NCBI RefSeq assembly: GCF_000374565.1
Contig: NZ_KB894698.1
Coordinates: forward strand, 1-64,000
Length of the DNA: 64,000 nt
Direction of reading: 5' to 3'
Source of the DNA: Siminovitchia fordii DSM 16014 = CIP 108821
Lineage (GTDB): Bacteria > Bacillota > Bacilli > Bacillales > Bacillaceae_C
A model generated the notes under the pieces. It worked only from the letters and a program-made list of their open reading frames with translations. It made no database searches and had not been told where the DNA came from. Position 1 is the stretch's first letter, and each line of letters opens with the position of its first letter. The translations under genes and the position numbers were made by a program. This document shows positions 23,455 through 38,793 of this stretch, in pieces.

Positions 23455-24447
23455 ATGAAAAAATTATGGGTATTACTTTTTGCTCTAATACTTGTATTAG
23501 CAGCATGCGGGGGCAAAGATAAGAGTGCCTCGGACAGTAAGGGGAAAGACGGAGAAGCCTCATTTGACGACTTGTTCGTTACCATCGCCACAGGCGGTAC
23601 GTCAGGAGTCTACTACCCAATGGGGGGAGCGCTTGCAACGATTTTGGAAGACAATCTTGGGATCGATGCTTCGGTTCAGGCAACACAGGCCTCGGTTGAG
23701 AACGTAAATTTGATTCTGAGTGATCGCGCTGAGTTGGCCTTTATCACTGGGGACACTGGATTCCAGGCTTATGAAGGATCAGGTGCATTTGAAAAGGAAG
23801 GAGCAAAAAAAGACTTAAGAGCACTTGCTTCGTTTTATCCTAACTACCTGCAAATCATTGCAACTGAAGATTCAGGTATCAAATCTTTTAAAGACTTAAA
23901 AGGGAAAAAGATTGCGGTCGGTGCACCAAACTCTGGTACTGAGCTTGCTGCACGGGTTCTGTTGGAAGGCCATGGAATGAGCTATGATGATATTACACCT
24001 GACTACTTATCTTTTGCAGAAGCAGCAGAGCAAATGAAAAACGGTATTATTGATGCGGCTATTTTAAGCAGTGGAATTCCAAACTCTGCCATTATGGATT
24101 TGGAAACAACGCATGGTGTTAACTTCCTTCCAATCGAAGACGATGCAATGAAATATCTGACAGAAAAATACTCTTATCTAAAAGAGGCAAAAATCCCTGC
24201 CGGCTCATACAGCAATAAGGAAGATATTCCGGCAATTTCTATTACAAATGCATTGATTGTAAGCAAGGACTTATCAGAAGAAGAAGTGTACCATATTACG
24301 AAAGCGATTTATGAAAATCTCGATACTTTGAAAAATGCCCACAGTGCAGCAGAAGATATCGATGTGAAGAATGCTCCGGAAGGACTTGGCATTCCATTGC
24401 ATCCGGGGGCTGAGAAGTATTATAAAGAAGAAGGCGTTATAAAATAA
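23455..24447 (+). CDS. TRAP transporter TAXI-family solute-binding lipoprotein
   Basis: A 330-residue lipoprotein: MKKLWVLLFALILVLAAC with lipobox cysteine at 19. The TAXI fold is in normal order: IATGGTSGVYYPMGG at the start, IKSFKDLKGKKIAVGAPNSGTE at the crossover into domain 2, and PLHPGAEKYYKEEG at the end. It should capture a solute outside the membrane and deliver it to the fused permease two genes downstream. The sigma-54 promoter directly upstream ties it to the kinase/regulator pair. A strong hairpin follows. This protein is the reference against which the permuted protein at 27.1 kb is recognised. Confidence 0.92.
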   Translation: MKKLWVLLFALILVLAACGGKDKSASDSKGKDGEASFDDLFVTIATGGTSGVYYPMGGALATILEDNLGIDASVQATQASVENVNLILSDRAELAFITGDTGFQAYEGSGAFEKEGAKKDLRALASFYPNYLQIIATEDSGIKSFKDLKGKKIAVGAPNSGTELAARVLLEGHGMSYDDITPDYLSFAEAAEQMKNGIIDAAILSSGIPNSAIMDLETTHGVNFLPIEDDAMKYLTEKYSYLKEAKIPAGSYSNKEDIPAISITNALIVSKDLSEEEVYHITKAIYENLDTLKNAHSAAEDIDVKNAPEGLGIPLHPGAEKYYKEEGVIK

Positions 24448-24515: not shown

Positions 24516-24959
24516 ATGATCATTTTTATTATTCTTACATCCTTTTTTATGTATTATAAACATCAATCTCTCGAACTGGTCCTGTGCGATCAAGAAGATG
24601 GGACTGAGTACATAAGAGAAGAAGTCAACCCAGACGATGAAATCATCGTTCACTGGAGACATTCGGTGGAAAGAACGATTTGGGAAGAAAAACTGAAGAT
24701 TGAAAAAGATGGAACCTTTACTTTGACAGAAACCCGTTTTCAATCATTTGGAGCAGGAGTTCCCAATGAAAAGGGCGGGAAAGTATCAATCAAAGATGGA
24801 TATGTAGTCATGGAAGATTTAAATGAGACAAAGCCGGCTTATTATTGGATTCATTCCCAACTGGCTGAATTGACGGTATATAAAAATGGAAAAGAACTTC
24901 TGCTGCCTGATGATATTCCTCATCATCATAAAGTGGAGATGATTATAGAGAAGGGGTGA
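24516..24959 (+). CDS. DUF1850 family protein
   Basis: A 147-residue protein with one N-terminal hydrophobic segment (MIIFIILTSFFMYY) and an extracytoplasmic body. The pattern HWRHSVERTIWEEKLKI with FQSFGAGVPNE is characteristic of DUF1850 proteins, which are regularly encoded between TAXI binding proteins and TRAP fused permeases. The role is unknown; an accessory part of the transporter is inferred. No clear ribosome binding site precedes ATG 24516, and coding potential in the same frame extends a few codons upstream (KSFWIV), so the true start is uncertain. Confidence 0.75.
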   Translation: MIIFIILTSFFMYYKHQSLELVLCDQEDGTEYIREEVNPDDEIIVHWRHSVERTIWEEKLKIEKDGTFTLTETRFQSFGAGVPNEKGGKVSIKDGYVVMEDLNETKPAYYWIHSQLAELTVYKNGKELLLPDDIPHHHKVEMIIEKG

Positions 24960-24963
24960 CAAA

Positions 24964-26931
24964 ATGAAAAAAGAAACGATTGGACAGGAGACCGCCGAAT
25001 TAGAACAAGGTCATGTGGAGATTTTGGAAAAATATGATGCAGAGTCACGTTTTCGGATGTTCAAGAACAAGTACATGACAATGTTGATTTCTATCATTGC
25101 GGTCGGGTTTTCTTTATATCATTTATATACATCTGTTTTTGGAGCACCTGCAACAATCAAGCACCGGGCGATTCACGTTGCACTTGTTCTTGTCTTGATC
25201 TTTTTATTATATCCAGCAAGCAAAAAGATGAGCAGAAGCAAGCTTAACTGGTTTGATGCCATTTTAGCCGTTTTATCTGTTTCTACGGCAGTGTACATCT
25301 TTGCAGATTATTTAGGAATCATCCAAAGGGGCGGAATTCCGAACAGTATGGATGTCGTTTTTGGTGTTCTGCTAGTGCTTCTTGTTCTAGAAGCAGCACG
25401 AAGGGTGACAGGCTGGGCGCTGCCTCTTTTAGCTGTGTTATTTTTCCTTTATGCACTGTATGGCCGCAGTTTCTCCGGCATATTCAGGCACAGGGGCTAT
25501 GAATGGGATATGGTAGTCAATCAGCTTTATGTGACGACGGAAGGGATATTCGGAACAGCTGTTGGTGTTTCAGCCACATATATTTTCCTGTTCATCCTAT
25601 TCGGAGCGGTATTGGGAAGGTCTGGAATGGGCCAGTTCTTCAATGACTTTGCCCTTGCGGTCGCAGGTCATACAAAAGGAGGACCTGCAAAAGTTGCTGT
25701 TATGGCGAGCGGGCTGTTGGGAAGTATTAACGGATCCGCGATAGCCAATGTTGTTACAACGGGCGCATTTACCATTCCTCTCATGAAAAAAATCGGTTAT
25801 AAAAAAGATTTTGCTGGAGCTGTAGAAGCCACTGCTTCGGTGGGGGGACAAATTCTTCCGCCAGTCATGGGAGCCGCTGCTTTTATTATGGCAGAAATGC
25901 TGAATATGCCATATTCTCAAGTGGCATTGGCAGCTATTTTACCAGCAGGCCTATATTATTTGGGGATCATCACGCAGATTCATTTAAGAGCATCAAAAGA
26001 CGGGTTACAAGGAATGAAGAGATCCGAACTGCCGAAGGTCTCCGAAGTGTTAAAAGAAAGAGGTCATCTGTTCCTGCCGCTTTTATTCCTAATTTACATG
26101 CTGTTTTTCAGTGGCAAAACGATAATTTTTGCTGCCTTCTGGACGATCGTTGTAACAATCCTCGCGGCGCAGCTGAGAAAAACGACAAGAATGTCATTGA
26201 AGGAAATTCTGGGTGCTTTGGAAGATGGTGCGAGGTCAGCGTTGTCTGTTGCTGTTGCGTGTGCGGCAGTTGGAATCATAGTCGGAGTAGCAACGTTGAC
26301 AGGTTTCGGTTTGAAGCTTGCGAGCGGAATTGTTGCTATCGGCGGGGACAGCCTGTTCTTGACTTTAGTATTTACAATGATAGCCTGTATCATACTGGGG
26401 ATGGGGCTTCCAAGTATTCCGACATACATCATCACAGCGACAATGGCTGCGCCTGCACTTGTACAACAAGGTGTACCGCCGTTTGTTGCACATATGTTTG
26501 TCTTTTATTTCGGCCTATTTGCGAATCTTACTCCTCCGGTTGCCCTTGCTGCCTTTGCAGCTGCCGGTATTTCTGGAGGAAGTCCGATGCGAACGGGATT
26601 TGTCTCTATGAAACTGGCGATCGCCGGATTTATCGTGCCATTTACTTTTGTATATAATCATTCTCTGTTGATGATTGACACAACATTTGTCGAAGGTGCG
26701 ATCGTTATTGTCACTTCTGTAGTGGGTGTGATTATGCTGGGGGTTGCTGCCGAAGGCTTTTTATTCACCGAGATGAATTGGCTGTTTAGAATACTGTCGC
26801 TTGCTGGTTCTGTTTTATTGATCACTCCAAATATGTTGCAGGATGTGATTGGTGTTTCTATTATAGTCATCGTGCTTGTTATTCAGCTGTTCAAAGTAAA
26901 AAAGAATAAAAATATAGCTATAGCATCTTAG
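24964..26931 (+). CDS. TRAP transporter fused permease (DctQ-DctM type)
   Basis: A 655-residue membrane protein combining the small (about residues 35-170) and large TRAP membrane subunits. Large-subunit hallmarks are GLLGSINGSAIANVVTTG near 260, VEATASVGGQILPPVMGAAAF near 290, and MGLPSIPTYIITATMAAP near 480. Powered by ion gradients, it imports the solute bound by the TAXI protein. It begins four bases after the DUF1850 stop with AGAAGGGGTG in front. The second permease at 28.4 kb is a close paralogue with the same N-terminal ILEKYD motif. Confidence 0.93.
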   Translation: MKKETIGQETAELEQGHVEILEKYDAESRFRMFKNKYMTMLISIIAVGFSLYHLYTSVFGAPATIKHRAIHVALVLVLIFLLYPASKKMSRSKLNWFDAILAVLSVSTAVYIFADYLGIIQRGGIPNSMDVVFGVLLVLLVLEAARRVTGWALPLLAVLFFLYALYGRSFSGIFRHRGYEWDMVVNQLYVTTEGIFGTAVGVSATYIFLFILFGAVLGRSGMGQFFNDFALAVAGHTKGGPAKVAVMASGLLGSINGSAIANVVTTGAFTIPLMKKIGYKKDFAGAVEATASVGGQILPPVMGAAAFIMAEMLNMPYSQVALAAILPAGLYYLGIITQIHLRASKDGLQGMKRSELPKVSEVLKERGHLFLPLLFLIYMLFFSGKTIIFAAFWTIVVTILAAQLRKTTRMSLKEILGALEDGARSALSVAVACAAVGIIVGVATLTGFGLKLASGIVAIGGDSLFLTLVFTMIACIILGMGLPSIPTYIITATMAAPALVQQGVPPFVAHMFVFYFGLFANLTPPVALAAFAAAGISGGSPMRTGFVSMKLAIAGFIVPFTFVYNHSLLMIDTTFVEGAIVIVTSVVGVIMLGVAAEGFLFTEMNWLFRILSLAGSVLLITPNMLQDVIGVSIIVIVLVIQLFKVKKNKNIAIAS

Positions 26932-27145: not shown

Positions 27146-28183
27146 ATGTTTATTAAAAAAAGAATTTCGTTCATTGCAGTATTATTCATGATCGCCGCAT
27201 TACTAGCAGCGTGCAGCAGCGGTTCAAGCGGTGATGGAGGCGGAGGAAGCGGAGGCGGCAAGAAGAAAGTAGCTATCGGACCGCCTGCGAGTGAAACGAA
27301 TTCTGTCTCAAAACTAATCATGGAAGCTTATGGTATTGAAGAAGGAGATTATGAGGCCTTTCAGGAAGCCTTTGGAGATGCGGCTGACGGAGTCCAGGAT
27401 GGGAATATTGAAGTATCAATAGGAATCCTTGGTTTACCGGCCGGTAGCATTGAAAGCTTACAAGCTTCAGCCGGTGATGTTAAAATGCTTGGGCTTTCTG
27501 ATGAGGCAATCAAGCATATTGAGGAGAAAAGCGGATACAAGCGACACACTATTCCGAAAGACACGTATGATTTTCTTGATGCTGATGTCGAAACAGTAAC
27601 TGCTTATGCCGTTTTAATGGGGAACACGGATACGATTGATGAAGAACTTGGGTATGAGCTTGCCAAAATCATGGTAGAAAATGCGAGTGAAAACACACAT
27701 GATCAGGCAAAACAGATGACACTTGAAAATGCACTGAATGGGGCGGAAGGGCTTCCTATCCATCCAGGTGCTAAGAAATATTATGAAGAACAAGGATTGA
27801 AGGTTGATAATCCTGTAGCTGAACTTAAGGCTGATAAGAAAAATAGAAAGAGTGAGTTGATCCTTGGTACGGGAAGCCAGGGTGGAACTTATTATCCACT
27901 CGGGGGAGAAATGGCTAATATTTGGAATAAACATATCGATGGCGTTAATGTAACGAACACAGAAACAGGTGCTTCCATTGAAAACCTTGCGAGTATCCGT
28001 GATGGAAACATGGATTTAGGCATGACTGTCCACGTGCCGGCACTGTCTGCTATTGAAGGCGAAGGGGACTTTGAAGGGGCAAAAGTAGAGAATGCTGCTT
28101 TCATTGGTCATATTTATCCTGAGGTCGTTCAGATTGTCACACGTGAAAAAACAGGAATCAAGAGCTTGGAGGATCTGAAATAA
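27146..28183 (+). CDS. Circularly permuted TAXI-family TRAP solute-binding lipoprotein
   Basis: A 345-residue lipoprotein with signal peptide and lipobox (LLAAC, Cys23) and a Gly/Ser linker (24-38). What follows is the second half of a TAXI protein first: KKKVAIGPPASETNSVSK (39 onward) to the normal C-terminus LPIHPGAKKYYEEQGL (203-218). A charged linker (about 220-236) joins this to the normal first half, LILGTGSQGGTYYPLGGE (238 onward), ending at GIKSLEDLK, exactly where KKVAIG should follow. Compare the ordinary TAXI at 23.5 kb, where IKSFKDLKGKKIAVG is contiguous. All fold elements are present once, in swapped order. ATG 27146 follows AAAGGGG. The permease gene follows after a terminator. 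Confidence 0.9.
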   Translation: MFIKKRISFIAVLFMIAALLAACSSGSSGDGGGGSGGGKKKVAIGPPASETNSVSKLIMEAYGIEEGDYEAFQEAFGDAADGVQDGNIEVSIGILGLPAGSIESLQASAGDVKMLGLSDEAIKHIEEKSGYKRHTIPKDTYDFLDADVETVTAYAVLMGNTDTIDEELGYELAKIMVENASENTHDQAKQMTLENALNGAEGLPIHPGAKKYYEEQGLKVDNPVAELKADKKNRKSELILGTGSQGGTYYPLGGEMANIWNKHIDGVNVTNTETGASIENLASIRDGNMDLGMTVHVPALSAIEGEGDFEGAKVENAAFIGHIYPEVVQIVTREKTGIKSLEDLK

Positions 28184-28419: not shown

Positions 28420-30378
28420 ATGAAAGAGAAAGAACATCTGGATGCCCAGGAAATACTTGAGAAGTATGATAGGGAAAATCAATTCAGGACTTCAATTGGA
28501 AAATGGGCATGGGTTGTTACGCTTCTAGGAGTTTCTTTGACGGTGTTCCATCTATATACTGGTTATTTTGGAACACTGCCTTCTCAGAAGCAGGGGGCGA
28601 TCCATTTGGGCACAGCTCTTGGGATCATTTATTTACTTTTTCCTGCTAAAAAAGGAATGCACAAGCTACAAAAGAAAGTTCCTTGGTATGATGTTGTGTT
28701 GGCGTTCGGTGCCATGTATGTCACTTACCATAAAATCTTCTTCTTTGACTCTATTTTAAAAAGCAGGATCACTGGATATAGCACAATTGATATTATCATT
28801 TCTATTATCGGGATACTCCTCGTTTTGGAAGCGACCCGCAGAACAGTAGGGGTACCTATTGTTGTTGTGGCGAGCATCACAATTTTATATGCTATTTTTG
28901 GTAAGCATATTCCGACAACCATTTTGTCGCATCCCGGATTCTCGGTGGACAGGATTGCCCCAAATCTTTGGTATCAGGAGAGTGGTGTTTTTGGAACACC
29001 TGTCCAAATTTCGGCCAAATTTATCTTTCTATTCCTGTTTTTTGGTGTCATGCTTGTCCACACGAAAATCGGACAGTTTTTCAATGATTTGGCATTTTCG
29101 CTGACTGGACGCTTTACGGGAGGGACTGCAAAGACGGCTGTTGTTGCCAGTGCTCTCCAAGGTATGGTTTCCGGAAGTTCTGTCGGAAATACGGTTGCTT
29201 CTGGATCATTTACCATCCCCATGATGAAAAAATCAGGATTTACCCCTGAGTTTGCAGGTGCAACGGAGGCTTCGGCATCAACGGGCGGGCAGATTATGCC
29301 TCCAATTATGGGAGCAGCCGCCTTTATCATGATGGAATACCTTGGTGTTCCCTATTCCACGATCATGCTTTCAGCTATGATTCCGGCTGTTCTGTACTTT
29401 ACAGGTATTTTTATTGGAACTCATTTCGAAGCGAAAAGATTAAAGATATTTGGCTTGCCAAAATCGCAGCTTCCAGTATTCAAAGATTTAATGCTAAAAA
29501 ACGGGTTTATGCTTTTACCGGTTGTTATAATGATCGGTACGATTCTCTCGGGATTTACACCGCAAAGAGCGGCGCTTCTGGGGATTGGAGCTGTTTTTAT
29601 CGTAAGCTTGGTCAGGAAAGACACGAGGCTTTCCATTCGGAAAATCTTTGAAGTGCTTGAACAGGGTGCAAGGGTAGCGCTGCCGGTTATTGCAGCTGTA
29701 GCAACTGCAGGAATCATTGCAGGGGTTGTGAGCATGACGGGACTTGGAGCCAAATTTGCTTCGGGAATTATCGCTCTATCAAGTGGGCATTTAATTTTGG
29801 CACTGTTCTTTACAATGGTTGCCTGTATCATACTCGGAATGGGACTTCCGACAACGGCCAATTATGTTGTTACGGCAACGGTTGCGGCACCGGCTCTCAT
29901 CAATGAGTTCGGCTTGGCACCGATTGCGGTCCATATGTTTGTATTCTATTTTGGAATTGTGGCGGACATCACTCCGCCGGTCTGCTTGGCTGCTTATGCC
30001 GGAGCGGGCATTGCCAGGGCGAACCCATTCAAAACAGGGGTCATTGCAGTAAAGCTTGCCATAGCGGCTTTTATCGTACCGTACATTTTTATTTACAATC
30101 CAATTTTGGTACTTGTGGATGTAACGCCTCTGGCACTTGTATTTGCGATCGTTACTTCGCTGATTGGCATGGCTGGCATTAGCAGTGCAGTCGTCGGATT
30201 CTACGCACGGAATTCATTTATGTGGGAGAGACTTGCCCTTTTTGCTGGCGGACTCATGATGATCTTCCCAGAAACGATCAGCGACTTTGTCGGCGCAGCC
30301 ATTCTGTTGGGCATTTGGATTATACAAAAACAGCGTAAAGATGACAGCAGTCAAATGAACAAGCAAGTGACAGTGTAA
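28420..30378 (+). CDS. TRAP transporter fused permease, second copy
   Basis: A 652-residue fused TRAP membrane protein, paralogous to the one at 25 kb. Shared blocks are AQEILEKYDRENQFR at the N-terminus, SALQGMVSGSSVGNTVASG near 255, TEASASTGGQIMPPIMGAAAF near 290 and MGLPTTANYVVTATVAAP near 480. It is the presumed partner of the permuted TAXI protein, 236 bases upstream. No DUF1850 gene accompanies this set. GAGTGAGGTG lies in front of ATG, and a terminator follows. Confidence 0.92.
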   Translation: MKEKEHLDAQEILEKYDRENQFRTSIGKWAWVVTLLGVSLTVFHLYTGYFGTLPSQKQGAIHLGTALGIIYLLFPAKKGMHKLQKKVPWYDVVLAFGAMYVTYHKIFFFDSILKSRITGYSTIDIIISIIGILLVLEATRRTVGVPIVVVASITILYAIFGKHIPTTILSHPGFSVDRIAPNLWYQESGVFGTPVQISAKFIFLFLFFGVMLVHTKIGQFFNDLAFSLTGRFTGGTAKTAVVASALQGMVSGSSVGNTVASGSFTIPMMKKSGFTPEFAGATEASASTGGQIMPPIMGAAAFIMMEYLGVPYSTIMLSAMIPAVLYFTGIFIGTHFEAKRLKIFGLPKSQLPVFKDLMLKNGFMLLPVVIMIGTILSGFTPQRAALLGIGAVFIVSLVRKDTRLSIRKIFEVLEQGARVALPVIAAVATAGIIAGVVSMTGLGAKFASGIIALSSGHLILALFFTMVACIILGMGLPTTANYVVTATVAAPALINEFGLAPIAVHMFVFYFGIVADITPPVCLAAYAGAGIARANPFKTGVIAVKLAIAAFIVPYIFIYNPILVLVDVTPLALVFAIVTSLIGMAGISSAVVGFYARNSFMWERLALFAGGLMMIFPETISDFVGAAILLGIWIIQKQRKDDSSQMNKQVTV

Positions 30379-30668: not shown

Positions 30669-30686
30669 TTGGCATGCATCTTGCAA
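30669..30686 (+). promoter_or_regulatory. Sigma-54 promoter upstream of the activator gene
   Basis: TTGGCATGCATCTTGCAA: GG and GC separated by ten bases, nearly the same as the site at 23393. It drives the sigma-54 activator and probably the pxpB-hyuB genes behind it. Confidence 0.82.
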
Positions 30687-30748
30687 TATTGAAAGATATA
30701 AAGCATGCCTTCACTTTACAAAGAATGCGAAGAATCGGGGGAATTTTC

Positions 30749-32803
30749 ATGCACTGGGATTGGAAGGGTGTACTGCAGCCTATCAGGCTTTTCGTTAATT
30801 CTGATATGACGGTGAAACATGTTTTTGCACAACTGAAAGCAAAAGAAGCAGAAGTCGGTTTTGTTTTAGAAGATGAAGAGATTGTTGGGTATATAACGCC
30901 TCTATCTTTATTAGATCAACTGCTGGAAGAAGGAGGACCTGCCAGAAGAATTAAGCCGGAAAAAGATTTTTTGTTTGTCCGAGAAGAGGCTTTCGCCAAA
31001 AATATTCACAATTGTCACCTAGTCATAGGTGCCGATCATGCGAATCGGCCAACCGGCTATATGTTCATGGATCGTCTGAACCAATTTTTAAGTGAAGTGC
31101 AATTAAAGAACTTCAATGATGCTCTAAACAATGCCGAAATGGGGATTGTCACAATGGATGCATCTTTTCAGGTTATTTTCATGAATGAAAAAGCGGAACA
31201 AATCCTCGGAATGAAAAGATCAATCATCCAAGGTCGTGATTACCGGAAGTTAATCAGGATGGACGCATCTTTCGATGAGGTATTAAAGGGGCAAAAGTGG
31301 TTTGGGGTTGAAAATACATTCAACTTCAAAGTTATTTCCGGTCAATTTTCCCCCATTTATGAAAGCGGTAAAATAATTGGCATCATCCATAATTTCTATT
31401 TGAAAGATCAATTGGAAGAAGCAGTGCATGAAATTGATTTTGTCCGTGAAATGAATGAAGATCTTCAGGCGATTTATTCATTGTCGAATGAGCAGATTTT
31501 GGTTGCCAATTCCAACGGGATTATTACAAAAGTAGCGGGAGCTTATTTTAATAGTTTTTGGGGAGATATCGAACACAACGAATTGATTGGAGAAAGTGCA
31601 GCAGAATTGGAAAGAAGGGGGATTTTCACTCCAAATATCATTTCAGTCTGCATCGAAAAGAACAGCAGGGTCATGCTGACACAGAAGGGAAAGAACGGGA
31701 CAGTCCTGTCGACGGCCACTCCCGTGATGGAAGATGGAAAGATTAAAAGAATCATTGTCTTGTCCAAAGACGTTTCAGCGGAGGAGAAAGCGTTCCACAT
31801 GTCTGAGGACGAAGCCGAATTTCATAGTGAGCCTGTCATTTACCGTTCTTCCGAGATGTCTGTTCTGATGGAAGAAGTGAAGGCGGTTGCCCCACTTGAT
31901 TCCACTGTTTTAATCACAGGCGAATCCGGAGTTGGTAAAGAAGTCATTGCCCGGAGGATTCACCAGTTGAGTCGTAGGTCTTCCGGTTCGTTTGTAGCCA
32001 TTAACTGCGGGGCTATACCTGAACATCTGATGGAAAGTGAATTATTCGGCCATGAAAAGGGAGCCTTTACTGGGGCAGAATCCAAAAGAGTCGGACTTTT
32101 TGAGCAGGGGCATGAAGGAACGGTTTTTTTGGATGAAGTTTCCGAGCTCCCCTATGCCATGCAGGTGAAGCTGCTTCGTGTGTTGCAGGAAAGAGAGGTC
32201 ATACGTGTGGGCTCCACTGTTCCGGTGAAAATCAATGTCAGGGTCATTGCAGCAACAAATAAAAGCTTGCGTCAATTGGTTCAAGAGAAGCAATTTCGTG
32301 AAGATTTGTATTATCGTCTGCACGTCGTCCCGATCCAAATTCCAGCTTTGAGAAGCAGAAAAAAAGATATTGCCCCACTTGCTGTTTATTTTTTGCAAGA
32401 GCTGAATGAGCAAAATGAGTACGAAAAGAAAATTTCTACTAATGCTTTAAATCTTCTGGAAAGCTACCAGTGGCCTGGAAATATTAGAGAACTTCGAAAC
32501 GTCATTGAAAGATTGATTGTCATTTCCAAAGGGGAAGAAATTTCGGAAAAAGATGTTTACCGCGTGTTGTGGGAAACGGATTCCAATGAGCAAGGCTTTC
32601 TAACGATCAAAGGAATCATCCCACTGAAAAAGGCGGTCGAGGAGACGGAGAAACAGCTAATCGAGTTAGCGGTAGAGAAATATGGTACAGCAACGGATGC
32701 AGCAAAAGCCCTTGAAGTCAGTATTTCGACGGTCAGCAGACGGATGAAAAGATTTAATGGCGATCAGGTCTCAGGAGGTATGGCTCATGATCTTTTTTTC
32801 TGA
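30749..32803 (+). CDS. Sigma-54-dependent transcriptional activator with CBS-like and PAS domains
   Basis: A 684-residue regulator: an N-terminal CBS-pair-like region (about 1-115; VGFVLEDEEIVGYITPLSLLDQLL), two PAS-like regions (about 120-230 and 245-350), an AAA+ domain with GESGVGKEVIARR and intact GAFTGA, and a terminal Fis-type helix-turn-helix (ATDAAKALEVSISTVSRRMKRF). The open frame reaches back to 30674 but would start inside the -24/-12 promoter. ATG 30749 is chosen, with GGGGG seven bases upstream. The gene overlaps pxpB by 17 bases. The small-molecule signal is unknown. Confidence 0.88.
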   Translation: MHWDWKGVLQPIRLFVNSDMTVKHVFAQLKAKEAEVGFVLEDEEIVGYITPLSLLDQLLEEGGPARRIKPEKDFLFVREEAFAKNIHNCHLVIGADHANRPTGYMFMDRLNQFLSEVQLKNFNDALNNAEMGIVTMDASFQVIFMNEKAEQILGMKRSIIQGRDYRKLIRMDASFDEVLKGQKWFGVENTFNFKVISGQFSPIYESGKIIGIIHNFYLKDQLEEAVHEIDFVREMNEDLQAIYSLSNEQILVANSNGIITKVAGAYFNSFWGDIEHNELIGESAAELERRGIFTPNIISVCIEKNSRVMLTQKGKNGTVLSTATPVMEDGKIKRIIVLSKDVSAEEKAFHMSEDEAEFHSEPVIYRSSEMSVLMEEVKAVAPLDSTVLITGESGVGKEVIARRIHQLSRRSSGSFVAINCGAIPEHLMESELFGHEKGAFTGAESKRVGLFEQGHEGTVFLDEVSELPYAMQVKLLRVLQEREVIRVGSTVPVKINVRVIAATNKSLRQLVQEKQFREDLYYRLHVVPIQIPALRSRKKDIAPLAVYFLQELNEQNEYEKKISTNALNLLESYQWPGNIRELRNVIERLIVISKGEEISEKDVYRVLWETDSNEQGFLTIKGIIPLKKAVEETEKQLIELAVEKYGTATDAAKALEVSISTVSRRMKRFNGDQVSGGMAHDLFF

Positions 32804-33677
32804 GACAAAGTTCGATTTTTGTGGAGATGAGTATATTTTTGGCGAAATTTCCCGGGAAATGAAGATTGAAAGTACATTAAAGGCATTGTCCATTACAAAA
32901 GAATTAAGTAAACGCAACATTCCCGGCATTATTGAAATTTATCCGAACAATACTTCCTATCTAGTACGATATGATCCAAATATCATATCACCGCACCATT
33001 TATTAGATTATTTGCGGGATGTAGACAGAATGAAAAATGAAGAAGAAAGCCTGATTGTGGATAGCAAAATTATCGAAATTCCTGTTTTATATGACGATGA
33101 AGAAACAAGAAAGATTTCGCTTCAGTATTGCCATCATCATGGGGAGAGTGAGGAATCCAACTTTGACTTTGTCATGAAACTTGGTGGATTCAAAAGCGTA
33201 GAAGAAGTAATCAAGCGCCATTCAGACCCGCTTTATTTGGTAACAGCAATCGGTTTTAAACCGGGAACAGCGTGGTGTTTTCCTTTATCCGGTTCAAAAT
33301 CCGATATGATTGAAGTTCCAAAATATAAAAGCCCCAGGCCTTTTACACCGGAAAGGGCGGTCGGGCTCGGGGGCGTGTTTACTGTAGTATATCCATCGGA
33401 ATCTCCCGGAAGCTACCAGTTGATCGGAAGGTCAGCGGTTCCTGTATACGATGTCTATCAAAGACTTGCCCCATTTAATGAAAGCTTTGTTTTGGCCAGA
33501 CCGGGAGACTTATGGAAATACAGGCCGGTATCAAAAGCGGAATACCGGAACATCCGTGAAGAGGTTATTAATGGAACGTATGAATATAAGATAAAGCCCG
33601 TCTCCTTTTCGGCTGCAAAATATAATGAGATGGGAACGGCATATACAGATCAATTGAAAGAGGAGTTCAACCGATGA
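32787..33677 (+). CDS. pxpB: PxpB/KipI-like subunit (carboxyltransferase domain, allophanate hydrolase subunit 1 family)
   Basis: A 296-residue protein of the KipI/PxpB family. Recognisable blocks are IPVLYDDEE, KRHSDPLYLVTAIGFKPGTAWCFPL, and the C-terminal GLGGVFTVVYPSESPGSYQLIGR with RPGDLWKYRPVS. With the next gene it corresponds to the PxpBC half of bacterial 5-oxoprolinase, or to split allophanate-hydrolase-like modules. It is longer than the usual ~240 residues because of an N-terminal extension. The start is set at 32787 by AGGAGG eight bases upstream. It overlaps the regulator gene and, by four bases, the next gene. No PxpA (LamB/YcsF) partner is seen; HyuA/HyuB follow instead. Confidence 0.82.
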   Translation: MIFFSETKFDFCGDEYIFGEISREMKIESTLKALSITKELSKRNIPGIIEIYPNNTSYLVRYDPNIISPHHLLDYLRDVDRMKNEEESLIVDSKIIEIPVLYDDEETRKISLQYCHHHGESEESNFDFVMKLGGFKSVEEVIKRHSDPLYLVTAIGFKPGTAWCFPLSGSKSDMIEVPKYKSPRPFTPERAVGLGGVFTVVYPSESPGSYQLIGRSAVPVYDVYQRLAPFNESFVLARPGDLWKYRPVSKAEYRNIREEVINGTYEYKIKPVSFSAAKYNEMGTAYTDQLKEEFNR

Positions 33678-34645
33678 TTGAGCTGAAAGAACCGGGCATT
33701 CGCACAACAATTCAGGATATGGGAAGAATTGGTCACTATCACCAGGGAGTTCCGCCGGCTGGGGCGGCAGATAAATTTTCTTTTATGTTCGGAAACCTGC
33801 TTCTTGGTAATCCCCGCCATGTTGCAGCACTTGAAATGATGGTTAAAGGAGCAGCGGTTGAATTTCACAAAAAAACAACTGCTGTTGTTACAGGAGCCCC
33901 GGTGGAAGTATTTTTGAACGGGCGTGAGCTGCCGATGTGGACCGTGTTTGAGATTCAAAAAGGGGATTTACTGGAAATCGGACTTATTGAGAAAGGATTG
34001 TTCAGCTATCTGTGCGTTTCTGGAGGGTTTGATGTTCCAGAAGTGCTGGGGAGCAAGTCGACCTGTCTTGCCAGTGTTTTTCCAGGCATTACTGGAAGAC
34101 TTTTGTTGGCAGGTGACAAAATTCCGCTTTCCGAGCCACTCCCCGGGGCGGTTCAATACATAGGCAGAGAATTGATCCGTGAAGCTATGCCTGAATTTGG
34201 AAAAACTGAAACAGTACATGTCGTTCTTGGCATTACTTGTGATTTGATTCGAGATGAAGGCCTCGTTTCCTTTTTAAACAGTCACTGGACAATCCAGCCC
34301 CAATCAAATCGAACAGCATGCAGGATGAAAGGGGGGCACATCAGTTATTCAGAAATCGACCCGCCTTTTGGTTCTGGGGGAACACCAGGAAATATAGTCG
34401 ATATCCCTTACCCCATCGGCGCAGTCATTGTGCCGAATGAGGAAGAGGTGATTGTTTTACTGAACGATGGTACAGGCGGAGGAGGTTTTGTAACGATTGG
34501 AACAATCATATGGTCGGATATCAGCAAGTTGTCCCAAATGAGGCCGATGTCGAAAGTGAGGTTTCAGACGATTACAGTGGACCAGGCGATATCGATTAGA
34601 CGCGAGAAAGAAAGGTTAATAGAAAGGGTTGCAGGGAGTATTTGA
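33674..34645 (+). CDS. PxpC/KipA-like biotin-dependent carboxyltransferase family protein
   Basis: A 323-residue partner of the preceding protein (allophanate hydrolase subunit 2 family). It opens with IELKEPGIRTTIQDMGRIGHYHQGVPPAGAADKFSF, the family signature, and includes FGSGGTPGNIVDIPYPIGAVIVPNEE near 240. PxpB and PxpC form the complex thought to activate or phosphorylate the lactam substrate in the prokaryotic 5-oxoprolinase. The ATGA overlap shows translational coupling. Its presence beside HyuA/HyuB, the other 5-oxoprolinase type, is notable. Confidence 0.82.
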   Translation: MIELKEPGIRTTIQDMGRIGHYHQGVPPAGAADKFSFMFGNLLLGNPRHVAALEMMVKGAAVEFHKKTTAVVTGAPVEVFLNGRELPMWTVFEIQKGDLLEIGLIEKGLFSYLCVSGGFDVPEVLGSKSTCLASVFPGITGRLLLAGDKIPLSEPLPGAVQYIGRELIREAMPEFGKTETVHVVLGITCDLIRDEGLVSFLNSHWTIQPQSNRTACRMKGGHISYSEIDPPFGSGGTPGNIVDIPYPIGAVIVPNEEEVIVLLNDGTGGGGFVTIGTIIWSDISKLSQMRPMSKVRFQTITVDQAISIRREKERLIERVAGSI

Positions 34646-34742
34646 ACTCAATAGCTTAAAGGTGGTGATGCCCTCATAACGGACTATAGATTGACTGGAA
34701 ACGGATGAATATGACGAAAACCGATTAAACGGAGGCGAAAAT

Positions 34743-36785
34743 ATGAGTAAATCTACAGGCTACCATGTTGCAGTTGACGTTGGTGGAACTTTTACCGATG
34801 TGTTTGTTTATGATGAAAAGACAGGAGAGATGTTTGTAACGAAAACATCTTCTACGCCGTCCAACCCAGAAAAAGGGATTCTGAACGGAATACTAAAAGC
34901 TGAATTGACAGGCGATAAAATAAAAATGTTCTCGCACGGAACAACAGTCGGTACGAACGCATTGATCGAACGCAAACTTCCAAAAGCAGCCCTTGTGACG
35001 ACAAAAGGGTTCCGCGATGTACCAGAAATCCGTCGCGGGACAAAGCTTGACCTATGGGATGCTTATAATGATGTTGCTGAGCCATATATCAAGCGGAGAG
35101 ACCGCTTTGAACTTGAGGAGCGTGTTGGTTTTGATGGACAAATGCTGGAAGAAGTCAATGAAGAGGACATCCGTGAACTGGCAAGAATTTTAAAAAGGAG
35201 AGAAGTCGAAGCAGTCGCCATCTGTTTCATGAACGCATATGTAAATGCAGAAAATGAAAGAAAAACAAAAGAAATTTTGCAGGAAGAGCTTCCTGATGCC
35301 TACATCTGCACCTCTTCAGACACGCTTCCAGAAATCTTCGAGCACGAGCGGATGAGCACAACAATTGTAAACGCTGTACTTGGACCGACTGTAAGCAAAT
35401 ACATTCATACACTTGAAGGAAATATGAAGGATCTGGGATATAACGGAGATATTATCGTTCTTCATTCCGGCGGAGGGGTCATGACTTCACAAACCGTTCC
35501 CAAATATGCAGCGAGACTCGCGAGTTCCGGGATTGCTGCAGGAGCAATAGCAAGCAAGCATATTGCCAACCTTTGTGGTTACAAAAATGCTATTGGTCTG
35601 GATATGGGAGGGACAAGTACGGACATCTCATTAATGTATGACAATGAACTCCGAATTACGAAAGATTGGTATATCGAATATGGGTATCCAATCGGTTTCC
35701 CAAGTATTGAAATTTTAACAATCGGTGCCGGAGGTGGAAGCATTTCCTGGATTGATGATGGCGGATCACTAAGGAACGGTCCTCATAGTGCAGGGGCAGA
35801 TCCGGGACCGGCCTGCTATGGGCAAGGCGGAAATGAGCCGACAAACACGGATGCTAATCTTATTCTGGGCCGTTTGAGCACGAAGCTGATTGATGGCCAA
35901 ATGGAATTGGATAAGGAATTATCGAAAAAAGCGATTGAAGAAAAAGTCGGAAAGCCTTTGGGTTATGATATTCATGGAGCGGCCAATGCGATGATTCAAG
36001 TGGCTAATGCCAATATGTGTGATGCCCTCAACTTGATTTCCGTACGCCGTGGTTATGATCCGCGCGACTTTGCGCTAGTTGCATTCGGAGGAGCAGGAGC
36101 CCTGCATGGAGCGGATCTTGCAAGAGAAATGGAAATTCCTACTGTTATCGTTCCTGCACACCCTGGAGTAGCTGCCGCTATGGGCTGTCTGCTTGTTGAC
36201 GTACGTCACGATATTTCAAAGACTTATTTTGCTAACGCGACAGAAGTGACAAAAGAAGAGTTGGATAAAGAATTCATTGAGATGGAAAAAGAGGCCACAG
36301 ATCTTTTGGCAGAAGAAGGTATTGAAGAAGAGCAAATGCATCTTATCCGCTACATTGATATGCGTTATATCGGACAATGGAGAACGTTGTCTGTAACAAT
36401 CGACCGTCCCATCATATCGCTTGACGAAGCGGTTGAAAGATTCCACTTGGAGCATGAGCGTGAATTCGCCTTCGCTGACAGGGATAAAGGAATTGAAATT
36501 TACGGCCTGCGTGTAGAAGCGATCGGTGCAGTTAATAAGCCGGTCTTTGCCAAAGAAGGGCCAAAAGGGACACTTGAAGAGGCAATCAAAGAAACAAGGA
36601 ATGTTTATTTTGAAGAAGCCGGTGGAATGGTCGAGTCTAAAATCTTTGACCGCACAAAAATTCCTGTATTGTCCGAATTCAATGGACCGGCCGTCATTGA
36701 ACAGCTTGATTCAACCATCGTTGTTCCGCCTGATTACTCTGTCAAAATTGATGAATATCGAAATATCATCATGAGCCGGGGATAA
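34743..36785 (+). CDS. Hydantoinase/oxoprolinase subunit A (HyuA family)
   Basis: A 680-residue ATP-dependent lactam or hydantoin hydrolase subunit. The actin-like ATPase phosphate-binding loop VAVDVGGTFTDVFVYDEKTG is at the N-terminus; GLDMGGTSTDISLMYDNEL near 285 and SVRRGYDPRDFALVAFGGAG near 430 are the other signatures. It pairs with the HyuB-type gene that follows. Family members open 5-oxoproline, hydantoins or N-methylhydantoins, and related carboxylases act on acetone or acetophenone, so the substrate is open. GGAGGCG ribosome binding site, 97 bases after pxpC-like. Confidence 0.88.
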   Translation: MSKSTGYHVAVDVGGTFTDVFVYDEKTGEMFVTKTSSTPSNPEKGILNGILKAELTGDKIKMFSHGTTVGTNALIERKLPKAALVTTKGFRDVPEIRRGTKLDLWDAYNDVAEPYIKRRDRFELEERVGFDGQMLEEVNEEDIRELARILKRREVEAVAICFMNAYVNAENERKTKEILQEELPDAYICTSSDTLPEIFEHERMSTTIVNAVLGPTVSKYIHTLEGNMKDLGYNGDIIVLHSGGGVMTSQTVPKYAARLASSGIAAGAIASKHIANLCGYKNAIGLDMGGTSTDISLMYDNELRITKDWYIEYGYPIGFPSIEILTIGAGGGSISWIDDGGSLRNGPHSAGADPGPACYGQGGNEPTNTDANLILGRLSTKLIDGQMELDKELSKKAIEEKVGKPLGYDIHGAANAMIQVANANMCDALNLISVRRGYDPRDFALVAFGGAGALHGADLAREMEIPTVIVPAHPGVAAAMGCLLVDVRHDISKTYFANATEVTKEELDKEFIEMEKEATDLLAEEGIEEEQMHLIRYIDMRYIGQWRTLSVTIDRPIISLDEAVERFHLEHEREFAFADRDKGIEIYGLRVEAIGAVNKPVFAKEGPKGTLEEAIKETRNVYFEEAGGMVESKIFDRTKIPVLSEFNGPAVIEQLDSTIVVPPDYSVKIDEYRNIIMSRG

Positions 36786-36831
36786 GAGTATCAAAAGAAT
36801 ATTTCTATAATGAGCCAGAAAAAGGGGAGAT

Positions 36832-38793
36832 ATGATGTTTAATGTCGATACGAAACTCGATCCGGTTACATTTGAAGTGTTGAAAAATGGATTTGTGAAC
36901 CTTGTTGACCAGATGTCGGAGCAGGTATTGCGTACATGTTATTCATTCGTTATTTATAATCGTGACTTCAGCTCAGCGTTATGTGATGCCAAAGGAAATA
37001 CCATCATGCAGGGTACCCAGGATATTTCCGTTCATGTTGGGACACTTCATTTGACGGCGAAAGCGGTCATTGATGACTTTGGAGATGATATCCATCCTGG
37101 GGACGTCTTTATAGTTAATGACCCGTATCGTGGAGGAACCCACTTTAACGATACACGGATTATCCGACCTGTATTTTATGACGGGAAGTTGATTTCCTTC
37201 ATGCAGGTGAACGGGCACTGGGCTGATATGGGAGGGTCCACTCCAGGTTCGTTCGATGTAAACGCCAAAACTCATTATGGGGAAGGTGTACGGATTCCTC
37301 CGCTCCGCATTTGGAGCAAAGGGGAGTATCTGGAAGACGTAGCAAACTTGCTTGTCTCCAACATGCGTGTTCCTGAAGAACGGCTGGGAGACCTCCGTTC
37401 ACAGGCAGAAGCGACAAAAACAGGTGAAAGGCAATTGATTGCGTTTATTGAAAAATATGGACTTGATACAGTGTTGACCGCATTTGAGGAAGTTCAAAAC
37501 TATGTTGAACGTTTGACGCGAGCAAGAGTGAAGGAACTCCCTGATGGTGTATGGGAAACAACCGATTACATTGATATGGATCCTGAAGTGGGAGATGGAC
37601 TGATTCCAATCAAAGTGAAAATGACCATCAAAGATGATGAAATTCATTATGATTTGGCCGGTTCCCATGGGCATATTGCCTGCTTTCTGAATTCGGCATT
37701 CGGTTCATCCTTATCCGCTGCTTATGCGGGAACTAAAACATTCTTCCCGGATATTCCATTAAACTCTGGCTTTTACCGCGTTGTACATGTGGACCTTCCG
37801 GAAAATACAGTTGTGAATGCAAGCTGGCCGGTGGCGGTTACAGGATTCTGTTCAGGAGCCTATGAAAAAATTATGAATGCCTGCTTCGAGCTCTGGTCAA
37901 GCATCATGCCGGAACGGGCTTTGGCCTGCTCCTTTAACTTGGAGTACCTACTCATTGGCGGAGACGACAAGCGTAAAGGCTATAATAATTACTTTATGTG
38001 GTATGACTGGATGGCCGGAGGACATGGAGGCCGCAGTTCAAAAGACGGAGCCAACGCAACTTCACCGGTATTTGGAGTAGGGTTGAGTATCCAACCTTGT
38101 GAAGGACAGGAGCGGCTTTCACCGGTAATTACAACCAAACATGAAATTGTCACTGATTCCGGCGGTCCTGGTAAGTTCCGGGGAGGCTGTGGTGTAGAAA
38201 AAGGCGGAATCCTTACGGAAGCACACGATGCTGTTATGTCCTACTGTTGTGACAGATCCCGTTCGGTTACATGGGGAATTTTTGGCGGACTTCCATCAAC
38301 ACCGCATGGTGTTAAACTGCAAAGAAAAGGAATGGAAACGGAGTTCCTTGGAACAATCTTCTCCAATGTAAAAGTCGGAAAAGACGACTATTTTACACGT
38401 CCATCTGCTGGTGGGGGAGGACTGGGAGACCCGCTTGAAAGGGATCCGAAAGCTGTCCTTGAAGATGTCATCGATGAATACGTATCTATCGAACGTGCCG
38501 AAAAGGATTATGGTGTCGTCATCAAAGAGATCGACCGTGAAATCGATCTGTTTGAAATTGACGAAGATGGAACAGCCAATACACGTGAATGGATTCGTTT
38601 GAACCGTGAAAAATGGCTTAAGGAAGACCCTGAATCCGTCATGGAAAAATTCCATAATGGGGAAGTGGACATTCTTGACCTGATCCGTCGTTATGGAATC
38701 ATAATAGACCAACAAACAGGGGAATACTTGCCTAAAACAACAGCGCAAAACAGGGAAGCGATGAGAAATCGCTCTATGGCTTATTGGAAGTAA
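36832..38793 (+). CDS. Hydantoinase/oxoprolinase subunit B (HyuB family)
   Basis: A 653-residue HyuB-type subunit. It begins LDPVTFEVLKNGFVNLVDQM, and has FIVNDPYRGGTHFNDTRI near 93 and GGPGKFRGGCGVEKGG near 445, all family signatures. With HyuA it should form the ATP-dependent hydrolase. AAAAGGGGAGAT lies before two consecutive ATG codons; the first is used here. A structured non-coding region with a terminator follows. Confidence 0.88.
   Translation: MMFNVDTKLDPVTFEVLKNGFVNLVDQMSEQVLRTCYSFVIYNRDFSSALCDAKGNTIMQGTQDISVHVGTLHLTAKAVIDDFGDDIHPGDVFIVNDPYRGGTHFNDTRIIRPVFYDGKLISFMQVNGHWADMGGSTPGSFDVNAKTHYGEGVRIPPLRIWSKGEYLEDVANLLVSNMRVPEERLGDLRSQAEATKTGERQLIAFIEKYGLDTVLTAFEEVQNYVERLTRARVKELPDGVWETTDYIDMDPEVGDGLIPIKVKMTIKDDEIHYDLAGSHGHIACFLNSAFGSSLSAAYAGTKTFFPDIPLNSGFYRVVHVDLPENTVVNASWPVAVTGFCSGAYEKIMNACFELWSSIMPERALACSFNLEYLLIGGDDKRKGYNNYFMWYDWMAGGHGGRSSKDGANATSPVFGVGLSIQPCEGQERLSPVITTKHEIVTDSGGPGKFRGGCGVEKGGILTEAHDAVMSYCCDRSRSVTWGIFGGLPSTPHGVKLQRKGMETEFLGTIFSNVKVGKDDYFTRPSAGGGGLGDPLERDPKAVLEDVIDEYVSIERAEKDYGVVIKEIDREIDLFEIDEDGTANTREWIRLNREKWLKEDPESVMEKFHNGEVDILDLIRRYGIIIDQQTGEYLPKTTAQNREAMRNRSMAYWK

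Follow-up and report, generated by a model that had tools for sequence, protein, structure and literature searches.

A TAXI solute-binding protein, naturally circularly permuted and encoded next to a fused TRAP permease

The gene at 27146-28183 of the window (the whole stretch of 64,000 nucleotides that was analysed) encodes a TAXI protein whose circular permutation is inherited; very probably it would still serve as a two-lobed clamp feeding a fused TRAP permease, with its lipid anchor moved. It consists of a single uninterrupted frame, from ATG at 27146 to TAA at 28181-28183. The gene, its parts and its neighbours are as follows:

23455-24447, forward: ordinary TAXI gene of a separate TRAP system, a distant paralogue (NMT1_3 in one stretch, profile 1-289)
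24516-24959, forward: DUF1850 gene of the ordinary TAXI system, between the ordinary TAXI gene and its permease
24964-26931, forward: permease of the ordinary TAXI system
27146-28183, forward: circularly permuted TAXI solute-binding lipoprotein, 345 residues (profile matches; 36 more distinct permuted genes)
27146-27214, forward: predicted signal peptide and lipobox with lipidated Cys23 (LLAAC, from inspection of the sequence and a regular-expression match)
27215-27259, forward: Gly/Ser tether running from Cys23 to the opening strand of lobe 2 (18 residues up to VAIGP)
27260-27799, forward: old C-terminal part (NMT1_3 profile 111-289), comprising most of lobe 2, hinge strand 2 and the second part of lobe 1 (profile; lobes mapped to VcGluP)
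27587-27625, forward: hinge strand 2, residues 148-160 (DSSP of the model; VcGluP 255-267)
27800-27862, forward: new linker of 21 residues, old C-terminus to old N-terminus (measured; 19-21 in 37 of 37)
27863-28180, forward: old N-terminal part (NMT1_3 profile 1-114), comprising the first part of lobe 1, hinge strand 1 and a short helix on lobe 2 (profile; lobes mapped to VcGluP)
28094-28144, forward: hinge strand 1, residues 317-333 (DSSP of the model; VcGluP 116-131)
28420-30378, forward: cognate fused TRAP permease, 652 residues (profile match to TIGR02123)
30674-32803, forward: probable sigma-54-type activator, a candidate regulator (motifs seen by eye, which we take to have this meaning)
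32757-34645, forward: two carboxyltransferase-domain genes, CT_C_D and CT_A_B (domain matches), presumably PxpB/PxpC-like
34743-38793, forward: two genes whose best matches are caprolactamase alpha and beta subunits (both under curated cut-offs)

When the protein was compared with the Pfam profile NMT1_3 (PF16868), two stretches were obtained in reversed order, profile positions 111-289 (at 27260-27796) preceding positions 1-114 (from 27863). The score of 216.7 bits is well above the cut-off of 27 and far beyond chance (E 6.6e-64). The TAXI profile TIGR02122 likewise matched in two stretches, with 225.4 bits against a curated cut-off of 84.35. By score the protein thus belongs to the TAXI family, while the usual succession of lobes along the chain (1, then 2, then 1 again) is absent; the reversal of the profile stretches indicates a permuted variant and not an ordinary TAXI member. 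What marks a natural permutation was found throughout: both halves are homologous to those of the family, their order is exchanged, each is present in one copy in an intact frame, and the arrangement is inherited. The original prediction of a TAXI protein with reversed halves, each occurring once, is borne out by these profile stretches and by the further genes, sisters and tree described below. As a side observation, the family profile names the permuted protein rightly while the swap stays hidden.

The same arrangement was looked for in related genomes, and after repeats had been dropped, 36 distinct permuted proteins were found besides that of the window, 27 in Bacilli and nine in the Halomonas family. 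A genome scan detected 25 loci (including Siminovitchia, Psychrobacillus, Sporosarcina, Oceanobacillus, Virgibacillus, Lentibacillus, Bhargavaea and others, with two in Halomonas), and the swapped order was present in one frame in all 25, with identities of 66-97%; since the scan uses short shared peptides, close relatives are favoured. Profile A1 gave whole-model matches in seven of 34 genomes of the window's family (6/6 within the genus, own genome included), in eight of 398 Bacilli genomes (own included), and in nine of 121 genomes of the family of a Halomonas genome (both starting genomes included). In the phylum of that Halomonas genome, 2/398 genomes matched, both already among the nine, and in a sample of 398 genomes from the window's phylum the window's own genome gave the sole whole-model match. 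On plasmids, 334 records matched, all below 60% identity, a figure that holds irrespective of half order. The permuted form is rare: 91 Bacilli genomes gave 86 NMT1_3 matches, amounting to about 83 whole or partial genes once split matches were joined by hand, and only two of these were permuted TAXI genes, those of the window and of genome G044. In the same material, a TAXI gene at G089:C36:294-1144 occupied two frames in normal order (profile 3-150, then 150-289), perhaps due to a frameshift.

This recurrence bears on the possibility that tandem normal TAXI genes were collapsed during assembly into a false permuted gene, an objection which the original prediction itself had anticipated. Although adjacent TAXI pairs do exist in Bacilli (two were noticed among 91 genomes), we consider such a collapse practically excluded: the swapped order recurs in all 25 scan loci from independent assemblies, among them L028 and L032, whose records are titled as complete genomes, matches in other genomes cover the whole model in a single match, the joining linker was found in 37 of 37 proteins, and the window's own genome harbours no normal-order copy exceeding 46% identity in either half.

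Close relatives which matched only half by half were detected in eleven genomes, ten of the 398-genome Bacilli search and G1194 from the sample of the window's phylum. All eleven, when fetched and read, proved to be normal-order genes, and we will call them sisters. Their halves share 49-68% identity with those of the window protein and are adjacent, with the order swapped in 11/11; the gap between the matched halves amounts to one codon in ten of them and two codons in L042. No normal-order sister above the same threshold was present in the eight permuted Bacilli genomes of the 398-genome search. The ordinary TAXI gene of the window (23455-24447), which had been put forward as a direct internal comparison, is a useful guide to the normal order; however, it is a distant paralogue and was rejected as parent, its halves being only 34% and 38% identical as compared with 49-68% for the sisters.

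In a tree of 56 proteins, for which the permuted proteins were rearranged to the old order beforehand, the permuted rows formed one clade (37/37, support 100/100) inside normal-order TAXI. Trees of the separate halves (54 rows, without L060 and L062, whose start motif was unmatched; L061, with a non-TAXI frame, was left out of all trees) joined the permuted rows to the same eleven sisters, with support of 100/99 for the N-half and 100/98 for the C-half. Within the N-half tree the permuted rows stayed together (100/99), and in the C-half tree they appeared as one group in only 44% of bootstrap trees. This last result would be compatible with a fusion of halves from two different TAXI genes instead of the permutation of one, and the duplication route considered below could itself mix two close copies. 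Nevertheless, a fusion of this kind is improbable, as each half separately joins the same eleven sisters with strong support, and identity to the sisters is similar for both halves. A single origin of the permutation from one TAXI subfamily is the simplest reading.

The site of the break was also mapped. In comparison with the normal-order sister of locus L033, window residues 47-225 correspond to sister residues 161-339 (60%) and residues 246-352 to 54-159 (64%), window residues being counted here from a TTG start, i.e. 7 higher than in the ATG numbering; sister residue 160 is the sole unpartnered residue within the aligned span. SLEDLK had been proposed to precede KKVAIG directly in the normal order, which needs a slight correction: one residue is missing between them, read by eye as Gly in the sisters. 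In the glutamate binder VcGluP, the hinge strands comprise residues 116-131 and 255-267, and domain 2 spans residues 132-254 (PMC11574862). By alignment, the break falls at VcGluP 143|146 in domain 2, i.e. within lobe 2, approximately 12 residues beyond the first hinge strand (116-131) and not at the hinge itself, where the original prediction had placed it. Both hinge strands thus survive. A single crossing between the lobes, as would result from a break at the hinge, was considered and dropped, since both long hinge strands remain.

The predicted structure is in line with this mapping. The model of the window protein (pLDDT 85.2, pTM 0.79) contains long strands at residues 148-160 and 317-333 by DSSP, which correspond by alignment to VcGluP hinge strands 255-267 and 116-131, respectively. 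According to the model, the protein is of the cluster F (type II) fold, with two alpha/beta lobes and two long antiparallel hinge strands. The original prediction had regarded a structure that does not close into the two-lobed fold as evidence against a permutation; instead, a confident model with both hinge strands was obtained, the strands being matched by alignment and not by coordinates. Over the whole model (residues 34-345), the best sequential structural alignment was that with OpuAC (2b4l; 211 residues, Z 14.5, rmsd 3.2), and the TAXI relative 9ibp aligned over model residues 38-225 only (Z 13.2, 186 residues); matches to other binding proteins indicate the fold alone. OpuAC and ProX themselves represent a permuted pair. 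A control model of the normal-order TAXI protein of the window was poor (pLDDT 52.9, three sequences).

From these data, the following course of events can be proposed. In an ancestor, the old gene ends became joined through a linker of 19-21 residues, and new ends arose inside lobe 2, between the helix ending in SLEDLK and the strand KKVAIG; the order of the parts and the site of the new ends are seen directly in the sequence. The chain is predicted, by analogy to VcGluP, to run from lobe 2 through hinge strand 2 into an uninterrupted lobe 1, and back through hinge strand 1 to a short helix on lobe 2. The resulting two-lobed clamp would capture an organic acid and pass it to the adjacent fused TRAP permease. 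In the sequence, the predicted lipid-bearing Cys now lies ahead of lobe 2, on a tether to its opening strand that is short in most members; in the normal order it lies ahead of lobe 1, where the tether is usually long.

As for the molecular route, tandem duplication followed by fusion and trimming would be a likely one. The 91 Bacilli genomes yielded no double-length TAXI fusion, as the longest listed frame, of 489 residues, contained one match. L063 and L064 contain adjacent normal TAXI pairs, 14 and 36 bases apart; at about 33% likeness, these are not recent duplicates. In six forward-strand translations of the flanks of the window gene, no remnants of lost half-copies were seen by eye, and in the relatives' loci, the best three tblastn pieces comprised nothing but the permuted gene itself and, for L008, L010 and L012, distant TAXI matches (27-37%).

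Circular permutation is a known kind of event, and it appears to be new in TAXI as far as the searched open-licence literature shows: no permuted TAXI or TRAP binding protein was described in the open-licence PMC literature searched, and a description elsewhere is possible. Many natural permutants have diverged too far from their unpermuted relatives for the event to be placed easily. Here, permuted and unpermuted relatives share the same permease family and, in part, the surrounding genes; a single inherited event seems to separate them. The sisters are so close that these proteins make a good test case, a natural experiment on how topology affects the way a TRAP binding protein folds, closes its hinge, is tethered to the membrane and docks. 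With normal-order TAXI proteins such as VcGluP and TtGluBP, the permuted form shares the family (by both halves), corresponding hinge strands and several pocket positions, and TRAP membrane partners; it differs in its swapped halves, its ends within lobe 2, the joining linker and an anchor placed before lobe 2.

Comparable topologies have been reported for other binding proteins. TpMglB-2 of Treponema pallidum is described as a naturally permuted, tethered binding protein, also occurring in Gram-positive bacteria, and anchoring is raised by its authors as a possible reason for the topology (PMC4990184). Unlike the permuted TAXI of a TRAP system, TpMglB-2 belongs to type I (cluster B) and binds sugar for an ABC transporter, and its permutation adds a fourth lobe crossing (PMC4990184), whereas both crossings are kept in permuted TAXI. 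Glycine-betaine binders, including OpuAC and ProX, are bilobed proteins reported to be related among themselves by circular permutation; these are ABC proteins less than 24% identical (PMC2395249), in contrast to the 49-68% per half between permuted TAXI and its normal relatives. The TAXI-GltS protein BP0403 is likewise of unusual TAXI architecture, but there extra N-terminal domains precede a standard SBP domain and the partner is GltS; the string 'permut' is absent from that paper's main text (PMC12344293).

The new position of the ends also affects the membrane anchor. Cys23 is invariant across 24 aligned permuted TAXI members, and 6-18 residues, with a median of 7, separate the lipobox Cys from the first strand across 35 permuted proteins (L048 and L055 omitted), the window protein's tether of 18 being the longest. 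In the sisters the median is 30 (n=11, with L037 entered as 12 by pattern and longer by eye); one sister, L059, has a genuine tether of 8, so a short tether is not strictly tied to permutation. The joining linker measures 19-21 residues in 37/37 permuted proteins, and contains VDNPVAEL in 16 of them and variants in the rest (counted by eye). Judging from the sequences, it is likely lobe 2, and no longer lobe 1, that carries the lipid anchor, in most members through a shorter tether; this would be the mechanical change. Somewhat speculatively, the permutation might have been kept because the anchor moved to lobe 2 and the tether was in most cases shortened (about 7 as compared with about 30 residues), so that the other jaw of the clamp would be the one held, fixing the orientation of the clamp over the fused permease. 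If so, this would represent a docking solution in which the order of the halves, and not the fold, was selected. As a separate observation, eight permuted proteins of the Halomonas family (L030, L032 and L049-L054) carry Gly or Ser after the lipidated Cys. By the E. coli rule, Gly or Ser at this position would route a lipoprotein to the outer membrane. Such routing would clash with a tether that is short and a permease that sits in the inner membrane.

Finally, we examined the neighbouring genes and the putative binding pocket. As is characteristic of TAXI proteins, the window gene is linked to a TRAP membrane component, the TIGR02123 permease downstream. Of the 39 permuted loci fetched, including three that duplicate genes counted elsewhere in the set, 38 have a homologue of this fused permease on the downstream side. 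No forward frame of at least 100 residues is listed between the permuted TAXI gene and its permease, the place that is occupied by the DUF1850 gene in the ordinary TAXI system. The one of the 39 loci that lacks the permease homologue is L016:4370-8570, where no TRAP permease was present in the fetched stretch and the next gene was of GGDEF/EAL type; a permease fusion had been suspected in this locus, until the gene proved to be of that type. The counterparts of VcGluP Y45 and E125 are conserved in permuted proteins (for Tyr at the Y45 position, three of 11 sisters were unmatched by the pattern, and S75 was judged on permuted members only). In contrast to VcGluP, both permuted proteins and sisters possess V at the Q93 position (37/37 and 11/11) and G at the Y200 position (36/37, with one unmatched, and 11/11).

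It might be argued that the permutation is real while the transport role was lost, the protein serving as a decoy, sensor or adhesin. The L016 locus without a nearby permease is compatible with this, and TAXI proteins are reported to have other partners in some cases (PMC12344293). Against it stand the permease in 38/39 loci, the retained Y45 and E125 counterparts, the sharing of V and G at Q93 and Y200 with the sisters, and low pairwise dN/dS (0.031-0.035 for the window gene against three relatives). We therefore regard loss of transport as very unlikely, and a binding protein feeding the TRAP permease remains the preferred reading.

As for the ligand, replacement of Q93 by alanine in VcGluP was reported to lower affinity 990-fold (PMC11574862); with V at this position, it is doubtful that glutamate is bound in the same way. 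All nine loci of the Halomonas family contain at least one of the genes for HglS (seven, three cut by the stretch), 2-aminoadipate transaminase (six) and a YdiJ-like protein (two), counts which rest on similarity to L030 and L052. In L030, HglS, 2-aminoadipate transaminase and L-piperidine-6-carboxylate dehydrogenase pass the NCBI curated cut-offs, and in L052 the YdiJ match lies below the NCBI cut-off, the gene being cut by the stretch. On the basis of these pathway neighbours, the putative ligand in the Halomonas family is likely 2-aminoadipate, a longer homologue of glutamate, or a relative of it. In Bacilli (window left out, stretches of unequal length), relatives (at least 54%) of a glutamate-1-semialdehyde-aminotransferase-like gene from L048 occur near four of 27 permuted loci and seven of 11 sisters, and an RpiR-type regulator near 2/27 and 7/11, respectively. 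In the window operon there are instead carboxyltransferase-domain genes and genes resembling those of caprolactamase (matches below cut-off). These neighbours give no pointer to 2-aminoadipate, and different lineages may therefore have different ligands. Beside the transporter, at 32757-38793, the carboxyltransferase-domain pair is followed by the two caprolactamase-like genes, an array which we take to be a possible ATP-dependent lactam-opening system.
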